NCBI RefSeq assembly: GCF_001573155.1
Contig: NZ_JRWG01000001.1
Location: 372,001 to 436,000 of the forward strand
DNA: 64,000 nucleotides
Origin: Aequorivita aquimaris
Lineage (GTDB): Bacteria; Bacteroidota; Bacteroidia; Flavobacteriales; Flavobacteriaceae
Direction: 5' to 3'
Below are positions 1,900-20,783 of this stretch, piece by piece. Both the position numbers and the translations under genes were made by a program. A model generated the notes under the pieces. That model worked only from the letters and a program-made list of their open reading frames with translations, was not told the DNA's origin and searched no databases. Numbering within the stretch: the first letter of the stretch is position 1; every line of letters starts with the position of its first letter.

Positions 1900-2736
1900 C
1901 TATACTTTAAAGGTCATTACCGGCAAGTCGGAATGGTTTACCACATCCTCACCTATGCTGCCTGAGAAGAAGTGCGCCAGCCCTTGGCGGCCCTGTGTGG
2001 GCAGGGCGATAATATCGGCATTGCTCACTTGGCTGTAGCCGAAAATTCCCGCTTCCACAGAATATTCGTTATACTGTACCACCTTGTTTAAAGTTTCCAG
2101 TGGGTTCTCTTCGCCCGCGCTCTTTAAAAAGTTGAGGATGCGTTTTTCTATTTCGCGGGTACTGCGGAAATCGCCCGCCAGGTTCACATAGAGCATTTGC
2201 ATTTCAATTCCCAAATCTTCAAACATTTTTTGGGCGCGCTGGTAGGGACCAATTGAGTTTTCCAAAAAGTCGCAGGCAAAAACCCCAACTTCCGGGTTGA
2301 AATATTCATGACGGTGCTTTATCACCAAAACGGGGATTTCGGAAGTGCGGACTACTTTTTCGGTATTGCTTCCCACAAAAACCTCCTTAAGACCAGAACT
2401 GCCGTGCGAGCCCATGATAATTAAATCTGCTCCAAACTCGCGGGCCACATCGTTCAATTCACTAAAAATTTTATAATTGTGGACGGCATCGGTTACGGTT
2501 ACGTCTTTTAAATAATCTTTATCGAGAAATTCGGCAAAACGCTTTTCTGCCAATTTCATGTAAAACATCGCCTCAAAAGCTTCCTTGCTTTCATCGCGTG
2601 TTAAGACTGCGTCGCTAAGACCCATCATATGAACCGCAACAATTTCAGCATTTTGTTTTTTCGCAATATTTGCTGCAACTTCCAATGCATAGTCTGAATG
2701 TTCGGAAAAATCTACGGGAACTAATATTTTTTTCAT
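1900..2736 (-). CDS. universal stress protein, tandem UspA domains
   Basis: A 278-residue cytoplasmic protein with two UspA domains, the usual Bacteroidota form. The N-terminus has KKILVPVDFSEHS. Domain 1 (about 1-140) carries the nucleotide-binding G-2x-G-9x-GS pattern as GSHG...GS. Domain 2 (about 150-278) has PTQG...GS, with the first glycine replaced by proline, so it may bind nucleotide poorly. The gene lies 12 bp downstream of the HPF gene and probably shares its promoter at 3074. Joint expression with a ribosome-hibernation factor fits a role in starvation or low-energy stress. The exact function of such proteins is generally unknown. Confidence 0.9.
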   Translation of the reverse strand: MKKILVPVDFSEHSDYALEVAANIAKKQNAEIVAVHMMGLSDAVLTRDESKEAFEAMFYMKLAEKRFAEFLDKDYLKDVTVTDAVHNYKIFSELNDVAREFGADLIIMGSHGSSGLKEVFVGSNTEKVVRTSEIPVLVIKHRHEYFNPEVGVFACDFLENSIGPYQRAQKMFEDLGIEMQMLYVNLAGDFRSTREIEKRILNFLKSAGEENPLETLNKVVQYNEYSVEAGIFGYSQVSNADIIALPTQGRQGLAHFFSGSIGEDVVNHSDLPVMTFKV

Positions 2737-2748
2737 GTTTTTGATCTT

Positions 2749-3048
2749 TTAGTGGGTTGAGAATTTAGCCTTGCGTTTTTTAAGCTGTTTTTCAAGGTCC
2801 GAAATTGTTTCTTTTGCGGCTGCCTCAAACGTAGCCTCTTTTGATGTTGCAAAAATTTTCGGTCCCGGAAGGCTCAATTCCATTTCGCAAATATTGCCTT
2901 TGCCGTAAACGTTGTTTTCCAACTTAAAGCTTACGTCGGCCCTAATTAGCCAATCATACTTTTCAGCAAGTTTTTGAAGTTTTTTTTCAACATAATCGTT
3001 CATTGCCTCGCTGGTGGGCATTTTCACATACTGAATGTTTATAGTCAT
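2749..3048 (-). CDS. hpf: ribosome hibernation promoting factor, short HPF/RaiA family
   Basis: A 99-residue member of the HPF/RaiA (sigma-54 modulation) family, which binds the 30S subunit and silences idle ribosomes. Visible family features are the N-terminal beta strand MTINIQYVKMPTSEAM, the helix DYVEKKLQKL, and a basic C-terminal helix LEKQLKKRKAKF. It lacks the C-terminal dimerisation domain of long HPF. It is first in a two-gene unit with the universal stress protein. Its promoter shows a TATATTTG -7 box and a palindromic operator upstream, so it is probably activated by a Crp/Fnr-type regulator. Confidence 0.9.
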   Translation of the reverse strand: MTINIQYVKMPTSEAMNDYVEKKLQKLAEKYDWLIRADVSFKLENNVYGKGNICEMELSLPGPKIFATSKEATFEAAAKETISDLEKQLKKRKAKFSTH

Positions 3049-3073: not shown

Positions 3074-3081
3074 CAAATATA
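3074..3081 (-). promoter_or_regulatory. -7 box of the HPF/USP unit
   Basis: On the minus strand this reads TATATTTG, an exact match to the Bacteroidota -7 consensus TAnnTTTG, 25 bp upstream of the HPF start codon. Confidence 0.7.
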
Positions 3082-3103
3082 TCCAGAATTTGCGGGTTTT
3101 AAA

Positions 3104-3117
3104 ATGACCAAAGTCAT
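3104..3117. promoter_or_regulatory. Crp/Fnr-like operator upstream of HPF
   Basis: A perfect palindrome ATGAC-CAAA-GTCAT with a 4-bp spacer. Exactly 22 bp separate it from the -7 box at 3074-3081, which puts its centre near -42, the usual class II activator position. The same geometry occurs at 9783 and 10460. Confidence 0.65.
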
Positions 3118-3134
3118 ATTGTACCTGTATTCAC

Positions 3135-3170
3135 AAAAAAACCCGCTTACAATTTTCTGCAGCGGGATTT
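3135..3170 (-). terminator. terminator of the efflux operon
   Basis: On the minus strand an inverted repeat (AAATCCCGCT / AGCGGGTTT) is followed by a run of T. It lies 27 bp after the DUF2892-type gene. Confidence 0.8.
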
Positions 3171-3196
3171 GGATTTATTGAATTTAAAGCGAAACT

Positions 3197-3403
3197 TTAA
3201 GCGCAGCAGCTATCCCCTTCGTCCTTCACGCCAAGTTTTTTAAGGATTTTTTCCATCAAACACCATTTTGTAAATGACGATTGCAAGAGGTTGACGCCCA
3301 CAAAACCTGTAAACCACAACCAGTTTATGTTTACATATACAGCCAACAAAAGGCTGATTAAAATGAAAGTTCCGGCAATTGCCCTGATATACCTGTTTAT
3401 CAT
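3197..3403 (-). CDS. small inner-membrane protein, DUF2892/YgaP-type
   Basis: A 68-residue protein with two hydrophobic segments (about 8-22 and 26-42) and a cytoplasmic tail ending in GDSCCA. The pattern of an N-terminal arginine pair, two membrane spans and a C-terminal ILKKLGVK matches the DUF2892 membrane domain found alone or fused to rhodanese in YgaP. The terminal cysteine pair might bind metal or thiols; that is inference. It is the last gene of the efflux operon, just before its terminator. Confidence 0.75.
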   Translation of the reverse strand: MINRYIRAIAGTFILISLLLAVYVNINWLWFTGFVGVNLLQSSFTKWCLMEKILKKLGVKDEGDSCCA

Positions 3404-3466
3404 ACTATTGAATTTTAGTGATTAGTGAATCGGGATTCGTAAAAGAAAAAGCCTGAACCCCTAACT

Positions 3467-3505
3467 CATAATTGTTAATTGCTAATTGTAAATTGCTAAT
3501 TGATT
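3467..3505. repeat. heptanucleotide tract (AATTGnT type)
   Basis: About five degenerate copies of a 7-base unit of the form AATTGTT / AATTGCT / AATTGTA, just downstream of the PII-like gene and touching its stop codon. Confidence 0.75.
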
Positions 3506-3809
3506 AAATACTCCGTTCTATGGGTACTACCACCGCATGGATCGGGTTGTTGGTTTCAAGATTTTTATTGAATTCTTTTACCAAACTGAAAAAAGAATCA
3601 ATCTTTTCATCTTCAGTGAAGGAGAAAAACATACTGCTGTCCGCGCCTCCTTTTTCCGATGGAAACCAACTGGAATTCATCATAAAGGAAGACGCATTTT
3701 TATAGCCCTCAATATCGGAACCGCTATAGCTCTCAATATTCGCTTGTTTAAAAAGTCGCAGCACGTCTTTCTGAAATTCGTCCACAACGGTTACTATTAG
3801 TAGTTTCAT
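3504..3809 (-). CDS. small PII-like protein linked to the RND efflux operon
   Basis: A 101-residue soluble protein beginning MKLLIVTVVDEFQKDVLRLF and ending HAVVVPIERSI. The alternating strand-helix pattern with hydrophobic strands at both ends suggests a PII/CutA-like ferredoxin fold. Small proteins of this kind (for example DUF3240) are often encoded beside heavy-metal RND pumps. It lies 168 bp downstream of the pump gene, in the same direction, with a low-complexity spacer between. A role as sensor or modulator of the pump is inference. I cannot place it in a named family with certainty. Confidence 0.55.
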   Translation of the reverse strand: MKLLIVTVVDEFQKDVLRLFKQANIESYSGSDIEGYKNASSFMMNSSWFPSEKGGADSSMFFSFTEDEKIDSFFSLVKEFNKNLETNNPIHAVVVPIERSI

Positions 3810-3826
3810 TGGGTTATTTTCTATTT

Positions 3827-3872
3827 TTTATTGTTATTGTTTATTGTTATTGTTTATTGTTATTATTTATTC
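3827..3872. repeat. 13-bp tandem repeat
   Basis: Three near-perfect copies of TTATTGTTATTGT between the PII-like gene and the RND gene. Confidence 0.8.
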
Positions 3873-3891
3873 AAAGTCATACAAACCTGAC

Positions 3892-3992
3892 TGTCTTACG
3901 TCTTACGTCCTACGTCTTATGTCTTAAGTCTTTTTTCTTTATTTCTTATTTAAATCTCAAATCTCACCTCTCAAATCTCACCTCTCCCGTCT
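3892..3992. repeat. two heptanucleotide tracts at the 3' end of the RND gene
   Basis: First a GTCTTAC-type 7-base repeat (3892-3930), then an ATCTCAA/CTCTCAC-type 7-base repeat (3953-3992). The second tract runs into the last codons of the RND gene. Confidence 0.75.
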
Positions 3993-6900
3993 ATTTTCAA
4001 TCATATAATAAACCAACGGCACTACAAGCAAAGTCAGTACTGTAGAAACAATAGTTCCGCCCATCAGCGAAATGGCAAGTCCTTGGAAAATTGGGTCAAA
4101 AAGAATTACAAAAGCGCCAATTACCACCGTTCCCGCAGTCAATAAAATTGGGGTTGTCCGTACGGCGCCCGCTTCTATTACGGCTTGTTTTAACGGAATT
4201 CCCTCTGCGGTTCGCAGGTTAACGAAGTCTATCAGCAGCACCGAGTTCCGCACCATAATTCCCGCCAGTGCAATCATCCCGATAAAGGAGGTGGCCGTAA
4301 AGAACGCGCCCATAATCCAGTGGCCTAGCACGATTCCTATCAACGAAAGTGGAATGGCAACCATCATAACAACAGGTGCCTTAAAGTTTTGGAACCAACC
4401 TACAATCAATATGTAAATGATGATGATTACACCCAAAAAGGCAATCCCCAAATCGCGGAATACTTCCAGTGTAATCTGCCATTCCCCATCCCACTTTACG
4501 GTGAAATCGTCTTCATGTTCGGGTTGCTGTAAATACAGTTCGTTCATTTTGTAACCCGTGGGCAACTCAATTTCATTAAGCTTGTCCGTCATTCCCAATA
4601 TGGCGTAAACAGGACTCTCGAGTTCTCCCGCCATATCCGCCAACACATAAACCACCCGTTTTTGGTTTTTGCGATAAATACTCTTGGCGCGTGTGCTTTC
4701 TTGAACAGAAACCAAATCGCCCACAGAAAGCATATTGCCCTGTTTGGAAGCAATCTTCAACTGCGAAATATCCTGGATGGTGGATTTTTCCTTTTCATCC
4801 AAAGCAAGCAATATTCCCACCTGATTGGTGGCGTTTTCATCGTACAGATGGGTTACTGGCCTATCCGAAAGCGCCATATTCATCGTATGGACAATCTGCT
4901 GTGGTGCCACGCCGTAGCGCATGGCTTTTTCCTTGTCAATGATAAATTCGTACTCCATTTGGTCGGCTTCTACCATCCAGTCCACATCAACCACATCCTG
5001 GGTTTCGTTCAAGATGTTTTCTACCTTTTTGGCCACGGCAATCTGCTGGTCGTAGTCAGGACCATAAATTTCTGCTACGATAGTTGATAGCACGGGTGGT
5101 CCGGGCGGTACTTCCACGATCTTCACATTGGCGCCAAACTTCTTTCCAATTTTCTGAATACCGGGTCGCAGTTGTTTGGCAATGTCGTGGCTTTGGTCGC
5201 TGCGGTCTTCCTTGCCTACCAAATTCACTTGGATATCGGCCATATTGCTACCCCCACGAAGGTCGTAATGGCGGACCAAACCGTTAAAGGTTATCGGAGC
5301 CGAAGTGCCCACGTAGTTTTGATAATTTACAACCAAGGGCTGTGTGGAAAGGTATTGTCCAATTTCGCGGGCAACCACTGCTGTTCTTTCCAAAGTAGTT
5401 CCCTCCGGCATATCGATCACTACCTGCATTTCGTTTTTATTGTCGAAAGGCAGCATTTTTACGGCAACCGATTTGGTAAAGAACATTGCCACAGACCCCA
5501 ACAGCAACAGCACGGTAACTCCCAAAAACAGCCAGCGCGTCTTTTTGTTTTCAATCAAAGGGGTTTCAAGTTTTGAATAGATGCGGTAGATAAGCGTGCT
5601 TTCCAAAGGTTTTTCTTCTTTTGGCGCTTTTCCTTTCCCACCACGGCGGGCAGGCTTTTCTTTTTCTCTTAGGAAAATGTAGCCCAAATAAGGTGTTATC
5701 GTTAAAGCCACAAACAACGAAAGTATCATTGCAATGGAAGCCCCAATTGGCATTGGCGACATATACGGCCCCATCAACCCAGAAACGAAAGCCATAGGCA
5801 AGACGGAAGCGATTACGGTAAAGGTTGCCAAAATGGTCGGGTTTCCTACCTCATTTATCGCATAAATAGCGGCCTGCTTAAACGGCAAGCGTTTCATCTT
5901 AAAATGCCGGTGCATGTTTTCGGCTATGATGATGGAGTCGTCCACCACGATTCCCGTTACAAACACCAAAGCGAAAAGTGTGATCCGGTTCAGCGTATAA
6001 TCAAGCAAATAATAACTCAAAAGTGTCAAGGCAAACGTAATTGGTACTGAAAGAAATACTACCAAACCACCGCGCCAGCCCATTGCGAGCATTACAATCA
6101 AGGTAACGGCAAGGATTGCGCCTATCAGGTGCATCAACAATTCCGAAACTTTTTGGGAAGCGGTTTCCCCGTAATTTCTCGTAATTTCTACGTGAACGTC
6201 GTCGGGGATTAGGTTGCTTCGCAGATGGTCAACCTTGTCGATAATCACATCGGCAATTTTCATTGCATCGGCACCTTTCCGCTTTGCTACCGAAATGGTT
6301 ATGGCGGGATATTCGGAAGGATACTTTGAAGCATTTTCACCAGCGCCTCCAAACCCAAACGAAACATATTGTCTTGGGATTTCGGGGCCATCAAAAATAG
6401 CCGCGACTTGTTTTAGATAAATGGGTTGGTTCTGCTGTACGCCCACTACCAAGTTTTCAACATCGGTTGCGGATTTTAGGAAATTTCCCGTTGTAACCAA
6501 AAACTCCGTATCGTTCTTATCAAAACTGCCCGAGCCCAGTTGCTGGTTGTTTGCCTTTATCATTTCGGCAACGCCCAAAAAGTCGAGACCGCTGGCAGCC
6601 AGTTTGTCCTTATCCAACACTACGCGCAACTGCCTGTTTCTACCGCCAATTTTATCGGTCAGGGAAACTTCATTTACCTTTTCAATTTCTTGGGTAAGTT
6701 CATCGGCAAGCTGCTTAAGCTGGAAATCGTCGTAATTCTCGCTCCACAGCGTTATCCCGAGCATCGGCACATCATCTATGGCACGCGGTTTTACAAGCGG
6801 CATGGTAACGCCTGGAGGCATTAGGTCCATATGCTTGTTCATTTCGTTGTAAAGTTTTACGAAGGAGCGCTCAATATCCTCGCCCACATAAAACTGTACA

Positions 6901-7190
6901 ATTACCATCGCCCCTTCCTTGGAAGAAGTGGAATACACATACTCCACCCCGGGAATGTTGGACACCAATTTCTCCAAAGGTTTTACCACCCTCGATTCCA
7001 CTTCGGTCGGGGAGGCGCCGGGGTAGCCCACGAAGATGTCGGCCATGGCCACATCAATCTGCGGTTCTTCCTCGCGCGGTATCAAAAACGAACTGTAAAC
7101 GCCAATGACCATAAACACAATCATCAACAGTACCGTAAGCTTTGAGCCTATAAATAACTTGGCAATTTTGCCTGCTAATCCGTCCTTCAT
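3978..7190 (-). CDS. RND efflux transporter permease (AcrB/HAE family)
   Basis: A 1070-residue inner-membrane proton antiporter, the pump of a tripartite efflux system. One transmembrane helix is near the N-terminus (LTVLLMIVFMVIGVYSSFL), followed by a periplasmic porter domain, a helix bundle around 340-520, a second porter loop and a C-terminal helix bundle around 880-1060. The proton-relay pair is visible as GIVVDDS in helix 4. The N-terminal REEEPQIDVAMADI resembles the multidrug/hydrophobic branch more than the CusA metal branch, so substrate is unknown. A charged glycine/lysine-rich insert near 515-535 is cytoplasmic. It starts 2 bp after the adaptor stop. Confidence 0.93.
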   Translation of the reverse strand: MKDGLAGKIAKLFIGSKLTVLLMIVFMVIGVYSSFLIPREEEPQIDVAMADIFVGYPGASPTEVESRVVKPLEKLVSNIPGVEYVYSTSSKEGAMVIVQFYVGEDIERSFVKLYNEMNKHMDLMPPGVTMPLVKPRAIDDVPMLGITLWSENYDDFQLKQLADELTQEIEKVNEVSLTDKIGGRNRQLRVVLDKDKLAASGLDFLGVAEMIKANNQQLGSGSFDKNDTEFLVTTGNFLKSATDVENLVVGVQQNQPIYLKQVAAIFDGPEIPRQYVSFGFGGAGENASKYPSEYPAITISVAKRKGADAMKIADVIIDKVDHLRSNLIPDDVHVEITRNYGETASQKVSELLMHLIGAILAVTLIVMLAMGWRGGLVVFLSVPITFALTLLSYYLLDYTLNRITLFALVFVTGIVVDDSIIIAENMHRHFKMKRLPFKQAAIYAINEVGNPTILATFTVIASVLPMAFVSGLMGPYMSPMPIGASIAMILSLFVALTITPYLGYIFLREKEKPARRGGKGKAPKEEKPLESTLIYRIYSKLETPLIENKKTRWLFLGVTVLLLLGSVAMFFTKSVAVKMLPFDNKNEMQVVIDMPEGTTLERTAVVAREIGQYLSTQPLVVNYQNYVGTSAPITFNGLVRHYDLRGGSNMADIQVNLVGKEDRSDQSHDIAKQLRPGIQKIGKKFGANVKIVEVPPGPPVLSTIVAEIYGPDYDQQIAVAKKVENILNETQDVVDVDWMVEADQMEYEFIIDKEKAMRYGVAPQQIVHTMNMALSDRPVTHLYDENATNQVGILLALDEKEKSTIQDISQLKIASKQGNMLSVGDLVSVQESTRAKSIYRKNQKRVVYVLADMAGELESPVYAILGMTDKLNEIELPTGYKMNELYLQQPEHEDDFTVKWDGEWQITLEVFRDLGIAFLGVIIIIYILIVGWFQNFKAPVVMMVAIPLSLIGIVLGHWIMGAFFTATSFIGMIALAGIMVRNSVLLIDFVNLRTAEGIPLKQAVIEAGAVRTTPILLTAGTVVIGAFVILFDPIFQGLAISLMGGTIVSTVLTLLVVPLVYYMIENRRER

Positions 7191-7192
7191 CG

Positions 7193-8272
7193 TTATTGTT
7201 TAATGGTTACTTTCGCTCCGTTAAAAAGTTTTCCTTCGGAAGAAATAATATAGTTTTCATCAGCGGCAAGGCCCGAAAGCACTTCCACATTATCGCCAAA
7301 CGTGCGACCAAGGCGCAACCAGCGCAGTAAGGCGGTATTGCTTTGGCTCACCGTGTAAATGCCCGTCAATTGTCCGCGTTTTACCAAGGCCTCCTTTGGC
7401 ACCATAACCGTGGTAACATCTGTTTTCTTTTCTATGGGAAACTGAACCGTAGCGTACATACCTGAAAGAATATCGGCATCGGTTTTGTCCAATACCACTT
7501 TCACCAAGTACTGCCCGCCCGTGTTTTTAGCGGAAGTGCTGACCTCGGTAACCGTTCCTGGTAATGTTTTATCTGAAGATTTTACAATTACTTGCACTTC
7601 CGTTCCAGATTTTATTTTTGAAATCTCACTCTCTGGCACCGAAGCCGTTACTTCAAAATTCCCTGGTCCTTCCACTGAAATCAATGGCACCCCGGGATTT
7701 GCCATATCGCCTGCCTCAATGAATTTATTGGTAACCACGCCGCTAAAAGGAGCGCGAAGGTTTACATAGGCAAACTGCGATTGCACTTCGTTCTTCATCT
7801 GTTTTGCGCCTTCCAATCTGGCCTTTGCCATTTCGTATCGGGCGCGTTGGTCGTCGAGTTCCTTTTGGCTTGCGCTGTTTTCAGCAAATAGGTTTTGGAA
7901 ACGTTGGTAATCCTTTTGGGCATTGTTAAAAGCAGCTTGCGCTTCGGTAATCCCGGCACTGGTCTGTGCTTGTTTTGCAGAAAGGTCTGAATTGTTGATG
8001 CTGACCAACAATTGTCCTTTTGCCACCTTGTCGCCCACATTTACGTGCACATTATCCACAAAGCCCATCATCCGGGTGCTGAGGGTAGCGCTATTGGCGG
8101 CCTCAATCTTGCCGCTGGCGGTTAAAAACGGCGAATTATTTTCCGCAGCTACCGAACTTACAGTTACCGACACTGCAGGAGTATTATCTATATTTTTTTC
8201 TTCGGAAGCATTGCCGCAACTGGCTAGGCTTAAAACTCCGAGGAAAAACAAACTTGTGTATAGTGACTTCAT
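7193..8272 (-). CDS. periplasmic adaptor (HlyD/MFP) lipoprotein of the RND system
   Basis: A 359-residue adaptor that bridges the RND pump and the TolC-type channel. The N-terminus has a lipoprotein signal ending LSLASC-G, with lipidation expected at the cysteine. A barrel-sandwich lipoyl-type domain follows (VDNVHVNVGDKVAKGQLLVS), then a coiled hairpin around 100-160 rich in Q/A/E, then the second lipoyl half (VNLRAPFSGVVTNKFIEAGD) and beta-barrel domains. The length is typical. It sits between the channel gene (157-bp gap holding a GC hairpin repeat) and the pump gene (2-bp gap). Confidence 0.92.
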   Translation of the reverse strand: MKSLYTSLFFLGVLSLASCGNASEEKNIDNTPAVSVTVSSVAAENNSPFLTASGKIEAANSATLSTRMMGFVDNVHVNVGDKVAKGQLLVSINNSDLSAKQAQTSAGITEAQAAFNNAQKDYQRFQNLFAENSASQKELDDQRARYEMAKARLEGAKQMKNEVQSQFAYVNLRAPFSGVVTNKFIEAGDMANPGVPLISVEGPGNFEVTASVPESEISKIKSGTEVQVIVKSSDKTLPGTVTEVSTSAKNTGGQYLVKVVLDKTDADILSGMYATVQFPIEKKTDVTTVMVPKEALVKRGQLTGIYTVSQSNTALLRWLRLGRTFGDNVEVLSGLAADENYIISSEGKLFNGAKVTIKQ

Positions 8273-8340
8273 ATAAATATTTTTTAAATCTTTTTTGATA
8301 CTGTATTTAATTTTGATTTTTGGGTTTCGATTTCGTCTGT

Positions 8341-8362
8341 CCCCCTAGCCCCCAAAGGGGGA
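8341..8362. repeat. GC-rich hairpin repeat (CCCCCTAGCCCCC-aaa-GGGGG family)
   Basis: A short hairpin CCCCC-aaa-GGGGG preceded by CCCCCTAG, inside the spacer between two efflux genes. Relatives occur at 54471-54606 and 54651-54678. Confidence 0.7.
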
Positions 8363-8428
8363 ATTTTATTCGGGTACATATGTAAATTATTTTTAATTTC
8401 CTTCCGATTGCTATCGGGATCAATTTCA

Positions 8429-9733
8429 TTAGTTTTTAGTTAAAAATTGAAGGTATGCCAAGGCGTAATTATGCTGAAATACGGTATTGAAATACTCCAG
8501 TTGTTTTTGCGAATACTGCGTCTCGGCCATTAACAGATCTGTGGTTTTCTCCAGACCTTCCTTAAATCTGTTGGTGCGGATTCTAAGTGCTTCTTTTGAT
8601 TGCTCCAATGCCAGTTCGGTCAATTTTAAATTGTTTTGCGCATCTTGGAACATCCGCTTGGCCTTGTTCAACTCCAATTGGCTTTCGGCCTTATATTGCT
8701 CCAATTCCAGATTTGCCTTATAGAATTCGGCCTTGCTTTTTTGGGTCTTTCCGAAGCGTTTTGAGCCTTCAAAGAGATTCCAGCTAAGGGATGCGCCAAA
8801 TAAATAACCATTGGCATCGGCCTGAAATATTTCATCATCATAAAGCTCATAACTTCCAAAAGCATTCAGTCTTGGCAAAAACGTCATTTTATCGGCCTTG
8901 TAATTTTGTTTGTAGGCTTCGGCGGCAAATTCCATCGCCTGAATATCGGCCCTGGAATCGGATAGGGTTTCCGCAGCATTCAATTCCGAAGCAACCATTA
9001 AGGAATCCGTTGGTTTTAAAACTCCCCCAACTTCCTCGTTCATAAGTACGGCAAGATATTCCGAAGCGTTTATCACGTTGCTCTTGGCGTATTGCAATTG
9101 ATTTTCCACTTCGGTAACTCGTACTTGCACCGCAAGCACATCGCTTTGTTGCAGATAACCCTGCTTAAAACTGTTGTTTGCCAAGCGCAGGTTTTCATTC
9201 GCCGCATTTAGAGCGGTCTCCAAAACGGCTACGCTCTTATACGCCAACTGCAACTGCATATAGGCCTTTTCGGTTTCCAGGGCAAGGTAATCGCCCGTGC
9301 GCGCCAACTGCATCTGGGTAGCTTCCCATTTTGCCTTTGCGGCTTTTCGCTGGAAGATACCATCCATATTTATCAGCGGCTGCTGCACCTCAAGCTTTGT
9401 GGTAAACATATTGATCTGGGAGGGATCATTCAGTTTGTTCGGGTCAAAATCGGCTTGGGTCACTATTTCCTGGTTCAGTTTAAACCCAAAGGCCATCAAC
9501 GGATTGGTGGTGGCCATTCCGCTGTGCGAGGCTGTAATATTGGGAAGGAACACGGCGTTCGTCTGGTTGAAATCGCCCTTGGCGGCAAGCACCTGCTGTT
9601 CGCCTATCTTCAGTTTGTTGTTTTGTTGGACCACCTTTTCCAGCACTTCGGCCTTGGAAATGGGAACGGTTTGCTGCGCAAAAACCATCGCTGGCAGCAA
9701 CCCGATTAGTGTAACTATATTTTTAATCTTCAT
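8429..9733 (-). CDS. TolC-family outer-membrane efflux channel
   Basis: About 434 residues with the start at 9733, which gives a clean signal peptide (MKIKNIVTLIGLLPAMVFAQQ). An upstream in-frame start at 9799 would lie before the -7 box at 9753-9760, so it is rejected. The mature part has two long helical repeats characteristic of outer-membrane efflux proteins, for example EVENQLQYAKSNVINASEYL around 225 and LELEQYKAESQLELNKAKRM around 355. The protein forms the outer-membrane exit duct for the pump below it. It is the first gene of the operon, and its promoter carries a palindromic operator. Confidence 0.92.
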   Translation of the reverse strand: MKIKNIVTLIGLLPAMVFAQQTVPISKAEVLEKVVQQNNKLKIGEQQVLAAKGDFNQTNAVFLPNITASHSGMATTNPLMAFGFKLNQEIVTQADFDPNKLNDPSQINMFTTKLEVQQPLINMDGIFQRKAAKAKWEATQMQLARTGDYLALETEKAYMQLQLAYKSVAVLETALNAANENLRLANNSFKQGYLQQSDVLAVQVRVTEVENQLQYAKSNVINASEYLAVLMNEEVGGVLKPTDSLMVASELNAAETLSDSRADIQAMEFAAEAYKQNYKADKMTFLPRLNAFGSYELYDDEIFQADANGYLFGASLSWNLFEGSKRFGKTQKSKAEFYKANLELEQYKAESQLELNKAKRMFQDAQNNLKLTELALEQSKEALRIRTNRFKEGLEKTTDLLMAETQYSQKQLEYFNTVFQHNYALAYLQFLTKN

Positions 9734-9752
9734 TTTAATAATTAATTTGGTG

Positions 9753-9760
9753 CAAACATA
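9753..9760 (-). promoter_or_regulatory. -7 box of the efflux operon
   Basis: Reads TATGTTTG on the minus strand, an exact TAnnTTTG match 19 bp before the chosen start of the TolC-family gene. Confidence 0.7.
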
Positions 9761-9782
9761 CGTTAGAAATCGAGCTTGGTCA

Positions 9783-9796
9783 GTAACTAATGTTAC
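9783..9796. promoter_or_regulatory. Crp/Fnr-like operator upstream of the efflux operon
   Basis: A perfect palindrome GTAAC-TAAT-GTTAC, 22 bp upstream of the -7 box. Spacing and half-site length match the sites at 3104 and 10460. Confidence 0.65.
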
Positions 9797-9811
9797 CAAA
9801 GAAGTATTGAT

Positions 9812-9898
9812 AGTGGGTAGTGGGTATTAGGTATTAGGTATTAGGTGGTAGGTAGTGAATGTTGAAAATTGATAATTGAATATTAAAAATTAATCTCT
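9812..9898. repeat. heptanucleotide tracts (GTGGGTA/TTAGGTA and AATTGAT types)
   Basis: Seven degenerate 7-base units from GTGGGTA to TTAGGTA, followed by an AATTGAT-type run. This fills much of the spacer between the efflux promoter and the DUF302 terminator. Confidence 0.7.
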
Positions 9899-9913
9899 CA
9901 ACCCTACCCTATT

Positions 9914-9950
9914 ATATCAAAAAGAGACTGCCTATTAAGACAGCCTCTTC
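9914..9950 (-). terminator. terminator of the DUF302 gene
   Basis: On the minus strand AAGAGGCTGTC pairs with GGCAGTCTCTT (two G-U wobbles) around a 6-nt loop, followed by TTTTTGATAT. Confidence 0.75.
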
Positions 9951-10002
9951 ACTAACCAAATAAATCTGCACTTATTAGGAACGAACCAACCACGAAACGT
10001 CC

Positions 10003-10392
10003 CTAAATACTTTTAATAACCTTGGTCAATTTTTTTTGTACGTCCTTGGCTATTTCCGCCAAGGAGTCATTTTCCACCGCCATCATGGAAGCCGCGGGAT
10101 CTACCGCCGAAACCTCAACAATGCCAGGCTCGCGTTCCTGCACTATCACGTTGCAGGGCAGCATAGTGCCAATCTTGTTTTCGGCCTGTAATGCCTGATG
10201 TGCCATTTGTGGGTTGCAGGCGCCGAGGATGGTGTAATTGTAAAAATCGGCATCCAACTTCTTTTTTAGGGTGGCCTTTATATCTATTTCGGTCAACACG
10301 CCGAAACCTTCCTCCTTTAAAGCTGCCGTTGTCTTGTCAATGGCCTCCTTAAAAGTGGTGTTTTTTAATGTTGTACTGATGTAATAACTCAT
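10003..10392 (-). CDS. DUF302 family protein
   Basis: A 129-residue cytoplasmic protein of the DUF302 family, recognised by the core YTILGACNPQMAHQAL and IGTMLPCNVIV near residues 60-90. The two conserved cysteines lie within these two motifs. The biochemical role of DUF302 is unknown; homologues often occur near sulfur, metal or anaerobic genes. It is monocistronic, with a strong -7 box at 10430-10437, a palindromic operator at 10460 and its own terminator at 9914-9950. The shared operator suggests co-regulation with the neighbouring efflux and hibernation operons. Confidence 0.88.
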   Translation of the reverse strand: MSYYISTTLKNTTFKEAIDKTTAALKEEGFGVLTEIDIKATLKKKLDADFYNYTILGACNPQMAHQALQAENKIGTMLPCNVIVQEREPGIVEVSAVDPAASMMAVENDSLAEIAKDVQKKLTKVIKSI

Positions 10393-10429
10393 AGCTTTAG
10401 ATTATTTAATTTATTTGAACAATCTGGTA

Positions 10430-10437
10430 CAAAGGTA
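10430..10437 (-). promoter_or_regulatory. -7 box of the DUF302 gene
   Basis: Reads TACCTTTG on the minus strand, an exact TAnnTTTG match 37 bp before the start codon. Confidence 0.7.
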
Positions 10438-10459
10438 AGATTGCTGTTTGGGAAGTTCT

Positions 10460-10473
10460 GTAACAAAGATTAC
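10460..10473. promoter_or_regulatory. Crp/Fnr-like operator upstream of DUF302
   Basis: The inverted repeat GTAAC-AAAG-ATTAC (one mismatch, extended by T/A on both sides) lies exactly 22 bp upstream of the -7 box, as at 3104 and 9783. Confidence 0.6.
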
Positions 10474-10740: not shown

Positions 10741-11325
10741 TCAATTCGCCGGGGTAATCATAATATGCGACCGGTGCGTGCCCGCATCCATCAGCCAGGG
10801 CATGCCGGGGGCTTGGGGTTTGGTGGGTAGGCCAGTGCTTTCGCCTGTCATATAAGGTTTGTAGATTACGTAGCGTATCTTGCTTTTAAGAAGTTCGCCC
10901 GTTTCGGCGCTATAGTCGCCTTCCTCGCCGGCCAGCACATAGACCATTGCGGGTTCCTCGGGCATTTTAAGCATGCCCGCCTCTATTTCGGCCTTTCTGA
11001 TCTGCTGCTTTTCCTCGTTTGATTTTCCTTCGGCCACCAACTCACGGCCACGGGCCATAAAGGGTTCCAGTTCGGCGCCGTAACAGGCTACGCTAATGCC
11101 CGCCTTGTTAGGGTCGTCTGCCAGGCATACCATGCCGTTGTTGCCCTCGCGCAGGGTGACGAGTTTTCCTTCTTGATTATAGCCCAGAACCGTGGCATCT
11201 TCTCGATACATTTCGGGGGCAGCCAGGACGGCGGTCTTAATCTGTATGTCTTTTGGAAGGATCTTGTTTTGGGCGAAGGTGGAGAACGCCACTGCCAAAA
11301 CGAAAAGAGTCATTAGTTTTTTCAT
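10741..11325 (-). CDS. secreted protein of unknown function, full-length copy
   Basis: A 194-residue protein with a signal peptide (MKKLMTLFVLAVAFSTFAQ), so exported to the periplasm or beyond. The mature chain is soluble, with DIQIKTAVLAAPEMYREDA near the N-terminus, a cysteine pair region around VCLADDP and SVACYGAELEP, and a C-terminal GTHRSHIMITPAN. I do not recognise the family. A truncated near-identical copy with the same promoter region lies about 9.5 kb away at 20409-20783. The stop codon abuts a 7-base repeat tract. Function unknown. Confidence 0.8.
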   Translation of the reverse strand: MKKLMTLFVLAVAFSTFAQNKILPKDIQIKTAVLAAPEMYREDATVLGYNQEGKLVTLREGNNGMVCLADDPNKAGISVACYGAELEPFMARGRELVAEGKSNEEKQQIRKAEIEAGMLKMPEEPAMVYVLAGEEGDYSAETGELLKSKIRYVIYKPYMTGESTGLPTKPQAPGMPWLMDAGTHRSHIMITPAN

Positions 11326-13598: not shown

Positions 13599-13680
13599 AT
13601 ATCGTTATAACCGAGGGGTTCGACTTTAGTTTATTCTGAGCGCAGGCGAAGGGCTCACCCTGACATCCTGCTTACCTTGA
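13599..13680. repeat. second CTTCGACT/GCTCAG-type intergenic repeat
   Basis: GGGGTTCGACTTTAG..TTCTGAGCGCAGGCGAAGGGCTCACCCTGACAT continues the same repeat style next to the flanked element. No coding potential. Confidence 0.5.
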
Positions 13681-13694
13681 CACTTCCCCTGTCT

Positions 13695-13945
13695 CCCGCT
13701 AGTGCGCGATTGTATCGCGTTCCTTTCCGTCTCAACCATAATAACGAAATACCACAATACCATCCAATAATCCTTTTTCCTTTGCATAATCTGCACATCT
13801 TTCTATCCTCCAGCCTTTTCTCCTTTTGGCACGAGCTACTACCATCGAGGCAAAGAACTACGGTAATTAGTACGTCCCCTAATTTACCGCTTCAAAGAAT
13901 TTTTTATCCCCCTCCCCTTTAGCATCTTGTATGCCAATACTTAAA
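13695..13945. repeat. RAYT-derived repeat, copy A
   Basis: About 250 bp, nearly identical to copies B (13950) and D (18918). On the minus strand it encodes the last residues of a REP-associated transposase (ADYAKEKGLLDGI...) before a stop, followed by the hairpin GCGAT-aca-ATCGC. It starts CCCGCTAGTGCGCG and ends TTTTTTATCCCCC plus a 3' tail shared with copy D. Confidence 0.75.
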
Positions 13946-13949
13946 TCCC

Positions 13950-14168
13950 CCCGCTAGTGCGCGATTGTATCGTGTTCCTTTCCGTCTCAATCATAATAGC
14001 GAAATACCACAATACCATCCAATAATCCTTTTTCCTTTGCATAATCTGCACATCTTTCTATCCTCCAGACTTTTCTCCTTTTGGCACGAGCTACTACCGT
14101 CGAGGCAAAGAACTACGGTAATTAGTAAGTCCCCTAATTTACCGCTTCAAAGAATTTTTTATCCCCCG
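13950..14168. repeat. RAYT-derived repeat, copy B
   Basis: About 219 bp in direct orientation with copy A, separated from it by 4 bp and differing at only a handful of positions. It lacks the 3' tail of copies A and D. Confidence 0.75.
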
Positions 14169-14215
14169 CCAATAGAAGCAAAGTATATATCTTTATATCA
14201 GCCGGTTTGTGCTAG

Positions 14216-14590
14216 TTATTGAATCTTTTCATCATTTAATTCTGTAGCCGCCATATTTGCAATTAATGAATACCCTTTAGGAATGGTTTTACTATTCTTT
14301 AAAAGTTCCTTCAGTTTTTCAAGGGCTGCTTCAGCCTGTACAAGATCGTTTTGCAACAACCAATATTCCCCTAAATATAGATAACCGTAAAGTTTTTCTA
14401 TATCCTCTTTGTCAGATGCAAGCAATGCATCCAATAGTGGTTTCACTTTAGCATCATTTTCAAAATTGTCATCAAAAAGATACATTCCTATTAGGGAGTA
14501 AGAGTTACGTTCCCGGTTTTCTTTTTCTGCTTCTTCAGAATAAATATCGTTTCTGTAAACCAGTTTCCATTATCTATCTTATACCATCTA
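14216..14590 (-). pseudogene. remnant of a TPR-like protein gene (frameshifted)
   Basis: An 89-codon frame (14216-14485) encodes a helical protein with TPR-like residues (YGYLYLGEYWLLQNDLVQAEAALEKL). Translation can be continued upstream without a start (YSEEAEKENRERNSYSLIG) to a stop near 14560. In the neighbouring frame the text YRWYKIDNGNWFTET reads on directly above it. This suggests a longer gene broken by a frameshift and truncated at its 5' end. It lies between RAYT-derived repeats. A short intact gene starting at 14485 is the alternative. Confidence 0.5.
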
Positions 14591-20408: not shown

Positions 20409-20783
20409 TTAGCTCTCTAATTTAAACAGAAACGGAATGCTAGCGGTAACTAGGGGCACCTCCCGTTTTTCTTCGTTTGATTTACCCTCAGCCACCAACT
20501 CACGGCCGCGGGCCATAAAGGGTTCCAGTTCGGCGCCGTAACAGGCTACGCTAATGCCCGCCTTGTTAGGGTCGTCTGCCAGGCATACCATGCCATTGTT
20601 GCCCTCGCGCAGGGTAATGAGCTTTCCTTCTTGGTTATAGCCCAGAACCGTGGCATCTTCGCGGTACATTTCGGGGGCGGCCAGGACCGCGGTCTTAATC
20701 TGTATGTCCTTTGGAAGGATCTTGTTTTGGGCAAAAGCCGAGAACGCCACTGCCAAAACGAAAAGAGTCATAAGTTTTTTCAT
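20409..20783 (-). pseudogene. truncated duplicate of the secreted protein at 10741-11325
   Basis: The first ~105 residues match the full-length copy almost exactly, including the signal peptide, with one residue change in the signal and one V-to-I change. After KSNEEK the sequence diverges to REVPLVTASIPFLFKLES and stops, losing the C-terminal ~85 residues. The upstream ~57 bp are also shared. It may still be expressed and exported, but it lacks nearly half of the parental protein. It lies between the PLD-like gene and the small membrane-protein cassette. Confidence 0.8.

Follow-up and report, generated by a model that had tools for sequence, protein, structure and literature searches.

Two classes of Crp/Fnr-type palindrome at one promoter spacing in Aequorivita aquimaris: a candidate two-tier network for low-oxygen gene expression

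Three promoters with one spacing

We analysed a stretch of 64,000 nucleotides of the Aequorivita aquimaris genome (RefSeq assembly GCF_001573155.1, 3.15 Mb; contig NZ_JRWG01000001.1, positions 372,001 to 436,000, or C1:372001-436000 of genome G000 in our numbering), hereafter the window, in which three minus-strand genes are preceded by a palindrome and a -7 box separated by exactly 22 bp. These are hpf (2749..3048; Pfam PF02482, Ribosomal_S30AE, E 1.5e-18), encoding a ribosome hibernation factor; a tolC-like outer membrane efflux gene (8429..9733; Pfam OEP, E 2.2e-46), the first of a presumed efflux operon; and duf302 (10003..10392; Pfam DUF302, E 8.7e-26). The palindromes ATGACTTTGGTCAT (3104..3117), GTAACATTAGTTAC (9783..9796) and GTAATCTTTGTTAC (10460..10473) are followed downstream by the boxes TATATTTG (3074..3081), TATGTTTG (9753..9760) and TACCTTTG (10430..10437), respectively, all on the minus strand and all located by pattern search and by comparison of orthologous promoters. 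Each palindrome lies upstream of its gene, its start being 69 bp (hpf), 63 bp (tolC) and 81 bp (duf302) from the start codon.

A search of both strands of the window for RTNAC-N4-GTNAY-N22-TANNTTTG with at most one mismatch returned only these three sites, at 3074-3117 and 9753-9796 (no mismatch) and at 10430-10473 (one mismatch). The first-pass annotation had reported a palindrome exactly 22 bp above TAnnTTTG in all three promoters, as we find at 3104, 9783 and 10460; its common formula RTnAC-N4-GTnAY is exact at hpf and tolC and one base off at duf302, where the left half-site is GTAAT. By chance 0.25 matches are expected (standard deviation 0.50, largest value 2), and none of 100 shuffles reached three. 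In the window the exact palindrome has eight strand-instances, and TAnnTTTG occurs within 5-44 bp of them only at 22 bp, twice (hpf and tolC); when one mismatch is allowed there are 132 strand-instances, with TAnnTTTG at 22 bp three times and at 24 bp once. In class II CRP/FNR promoters the regulator site is centred near -41.5 from the start site. Since TAnnTTTG has been placed at -7 in this phylum, according to the accessible part of PMC7366714, the palindrome centres here would lie near -41.

The spacing was followed through a sample of 28 genomes of the genus Aequorivita (G numbers; L numbers denote individual loci), with at most one mismatch tolerated in the TAnnTTTG box and, for hpf, at most one in the palindrome relative to RTnAC-N4-GTnAY. 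Palindrome, 22-bp spacer and box were present in 26/26 orthologous hpf promoters; in genomes G002 and G005 hpf is represented only by distant paralogues (L027, L028), whose promoters are without the palindrome. The geometry was kept in 21 of 22 tolC orthologues (exception L081) and in 20 of 21 duf302 orthologues, 18 with GTAAY..GTTAC and two with ATGAT..GTCAC, L049 having neither. No site was found in the promoter of any of nine duf302 paralogues (62-67% identical) at the loci examined. The palindromes at hpf, tolC and duf302 are thus a real and strongly conserved feature and, because the 22-bp spacing is kept across orthologues of all three genes and the sites are missing from the duf302 paralogues, the sites including their spacing look selected.

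Two site classes and their genomic partners

The first-pass annotation had united the three promoters in one regulon under one shared regulator, a view that gives way here to two site classes with distinct genomic partners and distinct best-fitting recognition helices. Class A has the consensus nTGAY-N4-RTCAn and class B GTAAY-N4-GTTAC, within a promoter geometry common to both. Among orthologues, hpf sites read ATGAY-N4-RTCAT in 25 of 26 and tolC sites GTAAC-N4-GTTAC in 21 of 21; in the window, hpf has ATGAC..GTCAT (class A) and tolC and duf302 have GTAAC..GTTAC and GTAAT..GTTAC (class B). A single palindrome family for all three promoters was rejected on these orthologue footprints and on profile scans, both of which separate the two classes.

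The profiles were built from sequence only (53 columns; training sets of 46 promoters for class A and 43 for class B). In the own genome (G000), 50 matches to the class A profile reached E <=10, and 16 of them E <=0.02. Twelve of the 21 best of these 50 matches have a strict palindrome and TAnnTTTR at exactly 22 bp, and 11 of the 12 fall within C1:308210-471961, about 164 kb or 5% of the genome, around the window. This segment, which holds hemN, ccoS, cytochrome, usp and crp2 genes together, may be read as a low-oxygen gene island. The strict sites precede hpf, two universal stress protein genes (usp1, usp2) and a gene for a 134-residue protein, four that were part of the training set, as well as eight that were not, namely a PepSY-like gene, mlaE, hemN, two cytochrome c genes (one NorC-like), an outer membrane protein gene, a ferredoxin-NADP reductase-like gene and ccoS. 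Palindromes without a good box at 22 bp were seen at RIC and glutamyl-tRNA reductase-like genes. HemN, CcoS and RIC were named from NCBIfam matches above cut-off; the PepSY, NorC, Mla, reductase and SQR names are our own reading of the sequences. Across the genus, hemN promoters have a class A site at 22 bp in 25 of 26 orthologues, the exception (L250) being a partial match with a palindrome and no box.

The class B profile recovered tolC, duf302 and the gene that follows crp2, which encodes a Tll0287-like haem domain, all with E <1e-7, and an SQR-like gene with E 0.018. There is no palindrome under a fifth own-genome match (C6:103805, E 0.038), which we regard as fortuitous. The site before the gene following crp2 is found at 22 bp in 26 of the 27 genomes with Crp2.

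REC-Crp and Crp2 as candidate regulators

The own genome has Crp-type helix-turn-helix (HTH) domains at four places and cyclic-nucleotide-binding (cNMP) domains at six; all of these matches fall outside the window, which rules out a regulator within it. One of these proteins, REC-Crp, is encoded 2.6 kb to the left of the window (C1:368360-369409) and joins a receiver (E 2.3e-29), a cNMP domain (PF00027, E 1.7e-17) and a Crp HTH (PF13545, E 2.2e-13) in one polypeptide, a cNMP-binding fold with a Crp-type HTH that places it in the CRP/FNR superfamily. Upstream of its gene lies that of a PAS histidine kinase and downstream lie five for universal stress proteins; the 134-residue protein gene is divergent from the kinase gene. 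All 77 relatives have the receiver Asp52, and the only cysteines of the own copy are C51 and C154. Second REC-Crp paralogues (L119 in G006, L118 in G019), 40-44% identical, carry the helix GTATETAIR; at L119 there are two class A-like sites, their boxes with one mismatch.

The kinase has HisKA and HATPase_c domains and scores 101.7 bits against the NCBIfam FixL model (cut-off 850). The nearest solved relatives of its PAS domain are DosP and FixL (E about 1e-17), and His67 aligns with the His that binds haem in both. This His is present in 26/26 genus orthologues given in full, and in 25 of the 26 an Arg stands 20 residues further on, which we take, by FixL numbering, to be the oxygen-contacting Arg of FixL.

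Of the 27 genus REC-Crp loci, all 27 have a class A site with the 22-bp spacing (at most one mismatch in the box) at the usp1 position, 24 have one at the usp2 position and 26 have one upstream of the 134-residue protein gene. For other genera we took the best 80 of 563 REC-Crp relatives, nearly all titled as Flavobacteriaceae genera and a few only by order or phylum, and used 77 loci after excluding L251-L253, which belong to genus genomes (G023, G014, G012). In these, TAnnTTTG stood 22 bp from a class A palindrome in 110 cases, and no other distance from 5 to 44 bp occurred more than seven times; control palindromes with a 3- or 5-bp centre gave none at 22 bp, and class B palindromes reached this spacing only twice. 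With TAnnTTTR as box, 242 class A sites were found in 76 of the 77 loci (none in L324), against 0, 2, 1, 0 and 0 in five first-order Markov resamples. By best match, the genes next to the 242 sites are usp1 (63), usp2 (46), other usp (21), the 134-residue family (35), hpf (12), ccoS (4), the kinase (3), cytochrome c (2), and duf302, REC-Crp and an ATP-cone gene (1 each); 44 sites precede other genes and nine have no open reading frame in reach. This peak in other genera and the conservation among orthologues agree with the earlier description of the sites as probable Crp/Fnr-type palindromes at class II distance.

The second candidate, Crp2 (C1:464811-465440), matches the cNMP and Crp HTH families above cut-off and likewise belongs to the CRP/FNR superfamily. 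A class B site with the 22-bp spacing lies directly downstream of crp2, before the next gene. Crp2 has only three cysteines, at positions 77, 83 and 84, and all 27 orthologues, down to 58% identity, share them. In G005 the class B sites are surrounded by genes for TauE, two MBL-rhodanese proteins, an SQR-like protein and cytochrome bd; in G009 they neighbour an MBL-rhodanese gene and genes resembling TauE and cytochrome bd. This neighbourhood suggests sulfide or persulfide as a possible signal of Crp2. Around crp2 in G005, a genome without REC-Crp, we observed TauE, two MBL-rhodanese, SQR-like, cydAB and 5'-nucleotidase-family genes (L345, G005:C11:193001-211500).

The pairing of protein and site class can be predicted from a code for the CRP family, in which, according to the part of the study of Rodionov and colleagues available to us (PMC1274295), Arg180 is associated with G, and the GTAAC of HcpR2 with loss of Glu181. 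With the recognition helices aligned by eye to that of CRP, the contact residues of REC-Crp are T180, E181 and R185 (T/P/S, E and R in 77/77 relatives), for which the code predicts nTGAY, and those of Crp2 are R180, V181 and R185, for which it predicts GTAAC. The distribution of proteins and sites among the 28 genomes, with the 150 best first-look candidates scored in each, runs parallel: REC-Crp is absent only from G005, which alone has no class A match at E 0.02 (6-18 in the others), and Crp2 is absent only from G002, which alone has no class B match at E 0.05 (2-6 in the others). Such joint absence of regulator and site class supports the assignment and is not decisive, because each case is a single genome in which known targets are lost as well. 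From sequence comparison, REC-Crp is the best candidate for class A and Crp2 the best candidate for class B.

Two further leads were set aside. Crp proteins with a PESLSR helix (L090/L344 type) were rejected as class A regulators because G005 keeps one (L333, 71% identical to L344) and has no class A match, a weak argument as G005 has also lost known targets; hemN as a gene that G005 might have kept while losing its site was uninformative, with no hemN match in G005 at E 1e-100.

A proposed two-tier network, its relatives and its neighbours

We propose, with a probability of about 0.7, that two activators of the Crp/Fnr family use one class II geometry (palindrome, 22 bp, TAnnTTTG) in a two-tier network. 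In the first tier, a fall in oxygen would lead the FixL-like PAS histidine kinase to phosphorylate the receiver of REC-Crp, which would then bind class A sites and switch on hpf-usp, the usp cluster, hemN, ccoS, cytochrome genes and mlaE-mlaF-mlaD-crp2. In the second, Crp2, perhaps responding to sulfide or persulfide, would bind class B sites and activate the TolC-HlyD-RND-YgaP cluster, duf302, the Tll0287-like haem-domain gene and probably also the SQR-like gene. The predicted link between the tiers is a strict class A site at C1:468036 directly before mlaE, which is followed by mlaF, mlaD and crp2 on the same strand with short gaps; at least seven genomes (G000, G003, G008, G011, G021, G023, G026) have a class A match in the equivalent position, some 2.6 kb upstream of crp2. 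Because of this site, hpf and the efflux cluster are probably linked by a cascade through crp2 and not by one regulator.

The identical geometry of the three sites would also be expected if one Crp/Fnr protein tolerant of both TGAY and TAAC half-sites read them all, and the other-class form standing in place at duf302 in two of 21 genomes, like the imperfect class B half GTAAT usual there, points the same way. We consider this decidedly unlikely, since G002 has class A without class B matches and G005 the reverse (both confounded by target loss), class A sites with the 22-bp spacing are plentiful in the 77 REC-Crp loci and class B palindromes reach it there only twice, and the published code assigns two specificities to the two helices. 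It is unlikely, too, that class A is read not by REC-Crp but by CrpX, a 195-residue protein encoded on contig C3 of G000, despite the Glu and Arg that its helix (QRVETVIRAI) has at the contact positions and despite its occurrence, which in the three genomes compared matches that of REC-Crp (present in G000 and G002, absent from G005). CrpX is unlinked to the sites, with no class A palindrome in the 6 kb around it, whereas class A sites stand beside REC-Crp in 76 of the 77 loci of other genera, all selected by their REC-Crp. A globin gene beside CrpX was guessed by eye and found no confirmation in Pfam. Finally, polymerase could also be kept off by a site centred near -41, and the palindromes might be repressor operators or chance repeats above promoters. 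Class II activation needs a fixed distance and operators tolerate shifts; in many genera the phase is exactly 22 bp, against control counts at or close to zero, and this makes the explanation highly improbable.

Several observations weigh against the proposed two-tier network or limit the evidence for it. Among the 21 highest-scoring class A matches of the own genome, nine depart from the strict palindrome-spacer-box form, the box of the SQR-like gene, CAATTTTG, has one mismatch, and genome-wide scoring covered the 150 best first-look candidates per genome. At duf302 of L034 and L040 (genomes G020 and G001), ATGATATTTGTCAC replaces GTAAT..GTTAC at an unchanged 22-bp position, an apparent change of regulator class in place; the site classes may thus interchange, and cross-recognition is possible. 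In G003, G005, G009 and G027, Crp2 relatives are present without a duf302 or tolC orthologue. Both joint absences concern single genomes and are confounded by target loss, as G005 also lacks hpf, duf302, tolC and hemN orthologues and G002 also lacks those of hpf, tolC and duf302 at the cut-offs used; being without CrpX too, G005 cannot separate REC-Crp from CrpX. The FixL-type His is present in 45 of 72 aligned kinases of other genera, so that either other inputs exist outside the genus or the alignments fail there. On the kinase side of the divergent promoter the palindrome is weak or mis-spaced, not 22 bp from a good kinase-strand box, which leaves self-control of REC-Crp unsupported.

FixL is a kinase with a haem-PAS domain, which is also predicted for the kinase here. 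FixJ joins a receiver to a LuxR-type HTH, and REC-Crp differs from it in that its receiver is followed by a cNMP domain and a Crp HTH. The predicted scheme resembles the FixLJ-FixK2-NnrR system in its succession of a sensor kinase, a response regulator and a CRP/FNR hierarchy over low-oxygen respiration, such as is outlined for Bradyrhizobium in the accessible text of PMC6710368. In Aequorivita, in contrast, receiver and CRP/FNR parts are fused, as if FixJ and FixK were one protein, and the second tier seems directed at sulfur compounds. The class B palindrome coincides with the GTAACnnnnGTTAC motif of HcpR2, as given in the part of PMC1274295 that we could consult. Crp2 differs from HcpR2 in having Val181, where that part of the paper has Pro181 for most HcpR2 proteins and Ser or Gln in three species, and in its targets: HcpR2 controls hcp, whereas the sites assigned to Crp2 neighbour efflux, duf302, TauE and SQR-like genes. 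No hcp gene was recognised by eye beside the class B sites inspected, no search aimed at hcp having been made.

FNR carries an N-terminal Fe-S cysteine cluster, and targets of FNR/ANR include hemN and cbb3 assembly genes. The FNR-like palindrome and the similar targets (hemN, cbb3 assembly) recall these regulators of Proteobacteria; REC-Crp, however, has a receiver as its N-terminus and, with C51 and C154 alone, no such cluster. DosR is a regulator of the NarL/FixJ type. Gene sets rich in universal stress proteins are shared with the lxa locus of Burkholderia and the DosR dormancy regulon, both hypoxia-induced according to the accessible portion of PMC6127331. Those systems belong to other phyla and other regulators, as opposed to the receiver-CRP fusion and Bacteroidota promoters found here. 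A literature search of titles and abstract openings, with most subscription journals outside its coverage, found no such system described, which is weak evidence of novelty.

The analysis provides a candidate master regulator of low-oxygen life in Flavobacteriaceae, a family common in the sea, together with its putative DNA site, and a fixed promoter geometry that can be used for whole-genome prediction. The predicted targets bring ribosome hibernation together with stress proteins and low-oxygen respiration. Two naturally occurring CRP relatives with two half-site codes in one promoter layout would be a clean test system for the evolution of code and regulon. More generally, we see an even chance that microaerobic respiration, universal stress proteins and ribosome hibernation are governed in Flavobacteriaceae by an oxygen sensor of the FixL type together with a FixJ-FixK fusion protein; that a second-tier CRP-family cysteine sensor of sulfide or persulfide reads TAAC instead of TGAY with the geometry locked; and that genes change tier by half-site bases alone, as duf302 seems to have done.

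The remaining genes under the three promoters, all on the minus strand, are as follows. A universal stress protein gene (usp, 1900..2736; Pfam Usp, E 5.1e-40) begins 12 bp after hpf and presumably forms an operon with it. The tolC start is the ATG at 9733, conserved in orthologues; a longer open reading frame from TTG would overlap the promoter. Downstream of tolC lie genes for a HlyD-type membrane fusion protein (7193..8272; Pfam HlyD_D23, E 4e-23), an RND pump of the AcrB family (3978..7190; Pfam ACR_tran, E 1.3e-160), a 101-residue protein with no Pfam match (3504..3809) and, at the cluster end, a YgaP-like transmembrane protein of 68 residues (3197..3403; PF11127, E 1.1e-13). Elsewhere in the window, two minus-strand open reading frames (10741-11325 and 20409-20783) have near-identical N-terminal halves, the second being shorter, and look like a duplicated gene with an altered end. 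At 13677-14222 on the plus strand, two open reading frames have in common a long near-identical stretch from YRVPFRLNHN, probably a DNA repeat and not genes.

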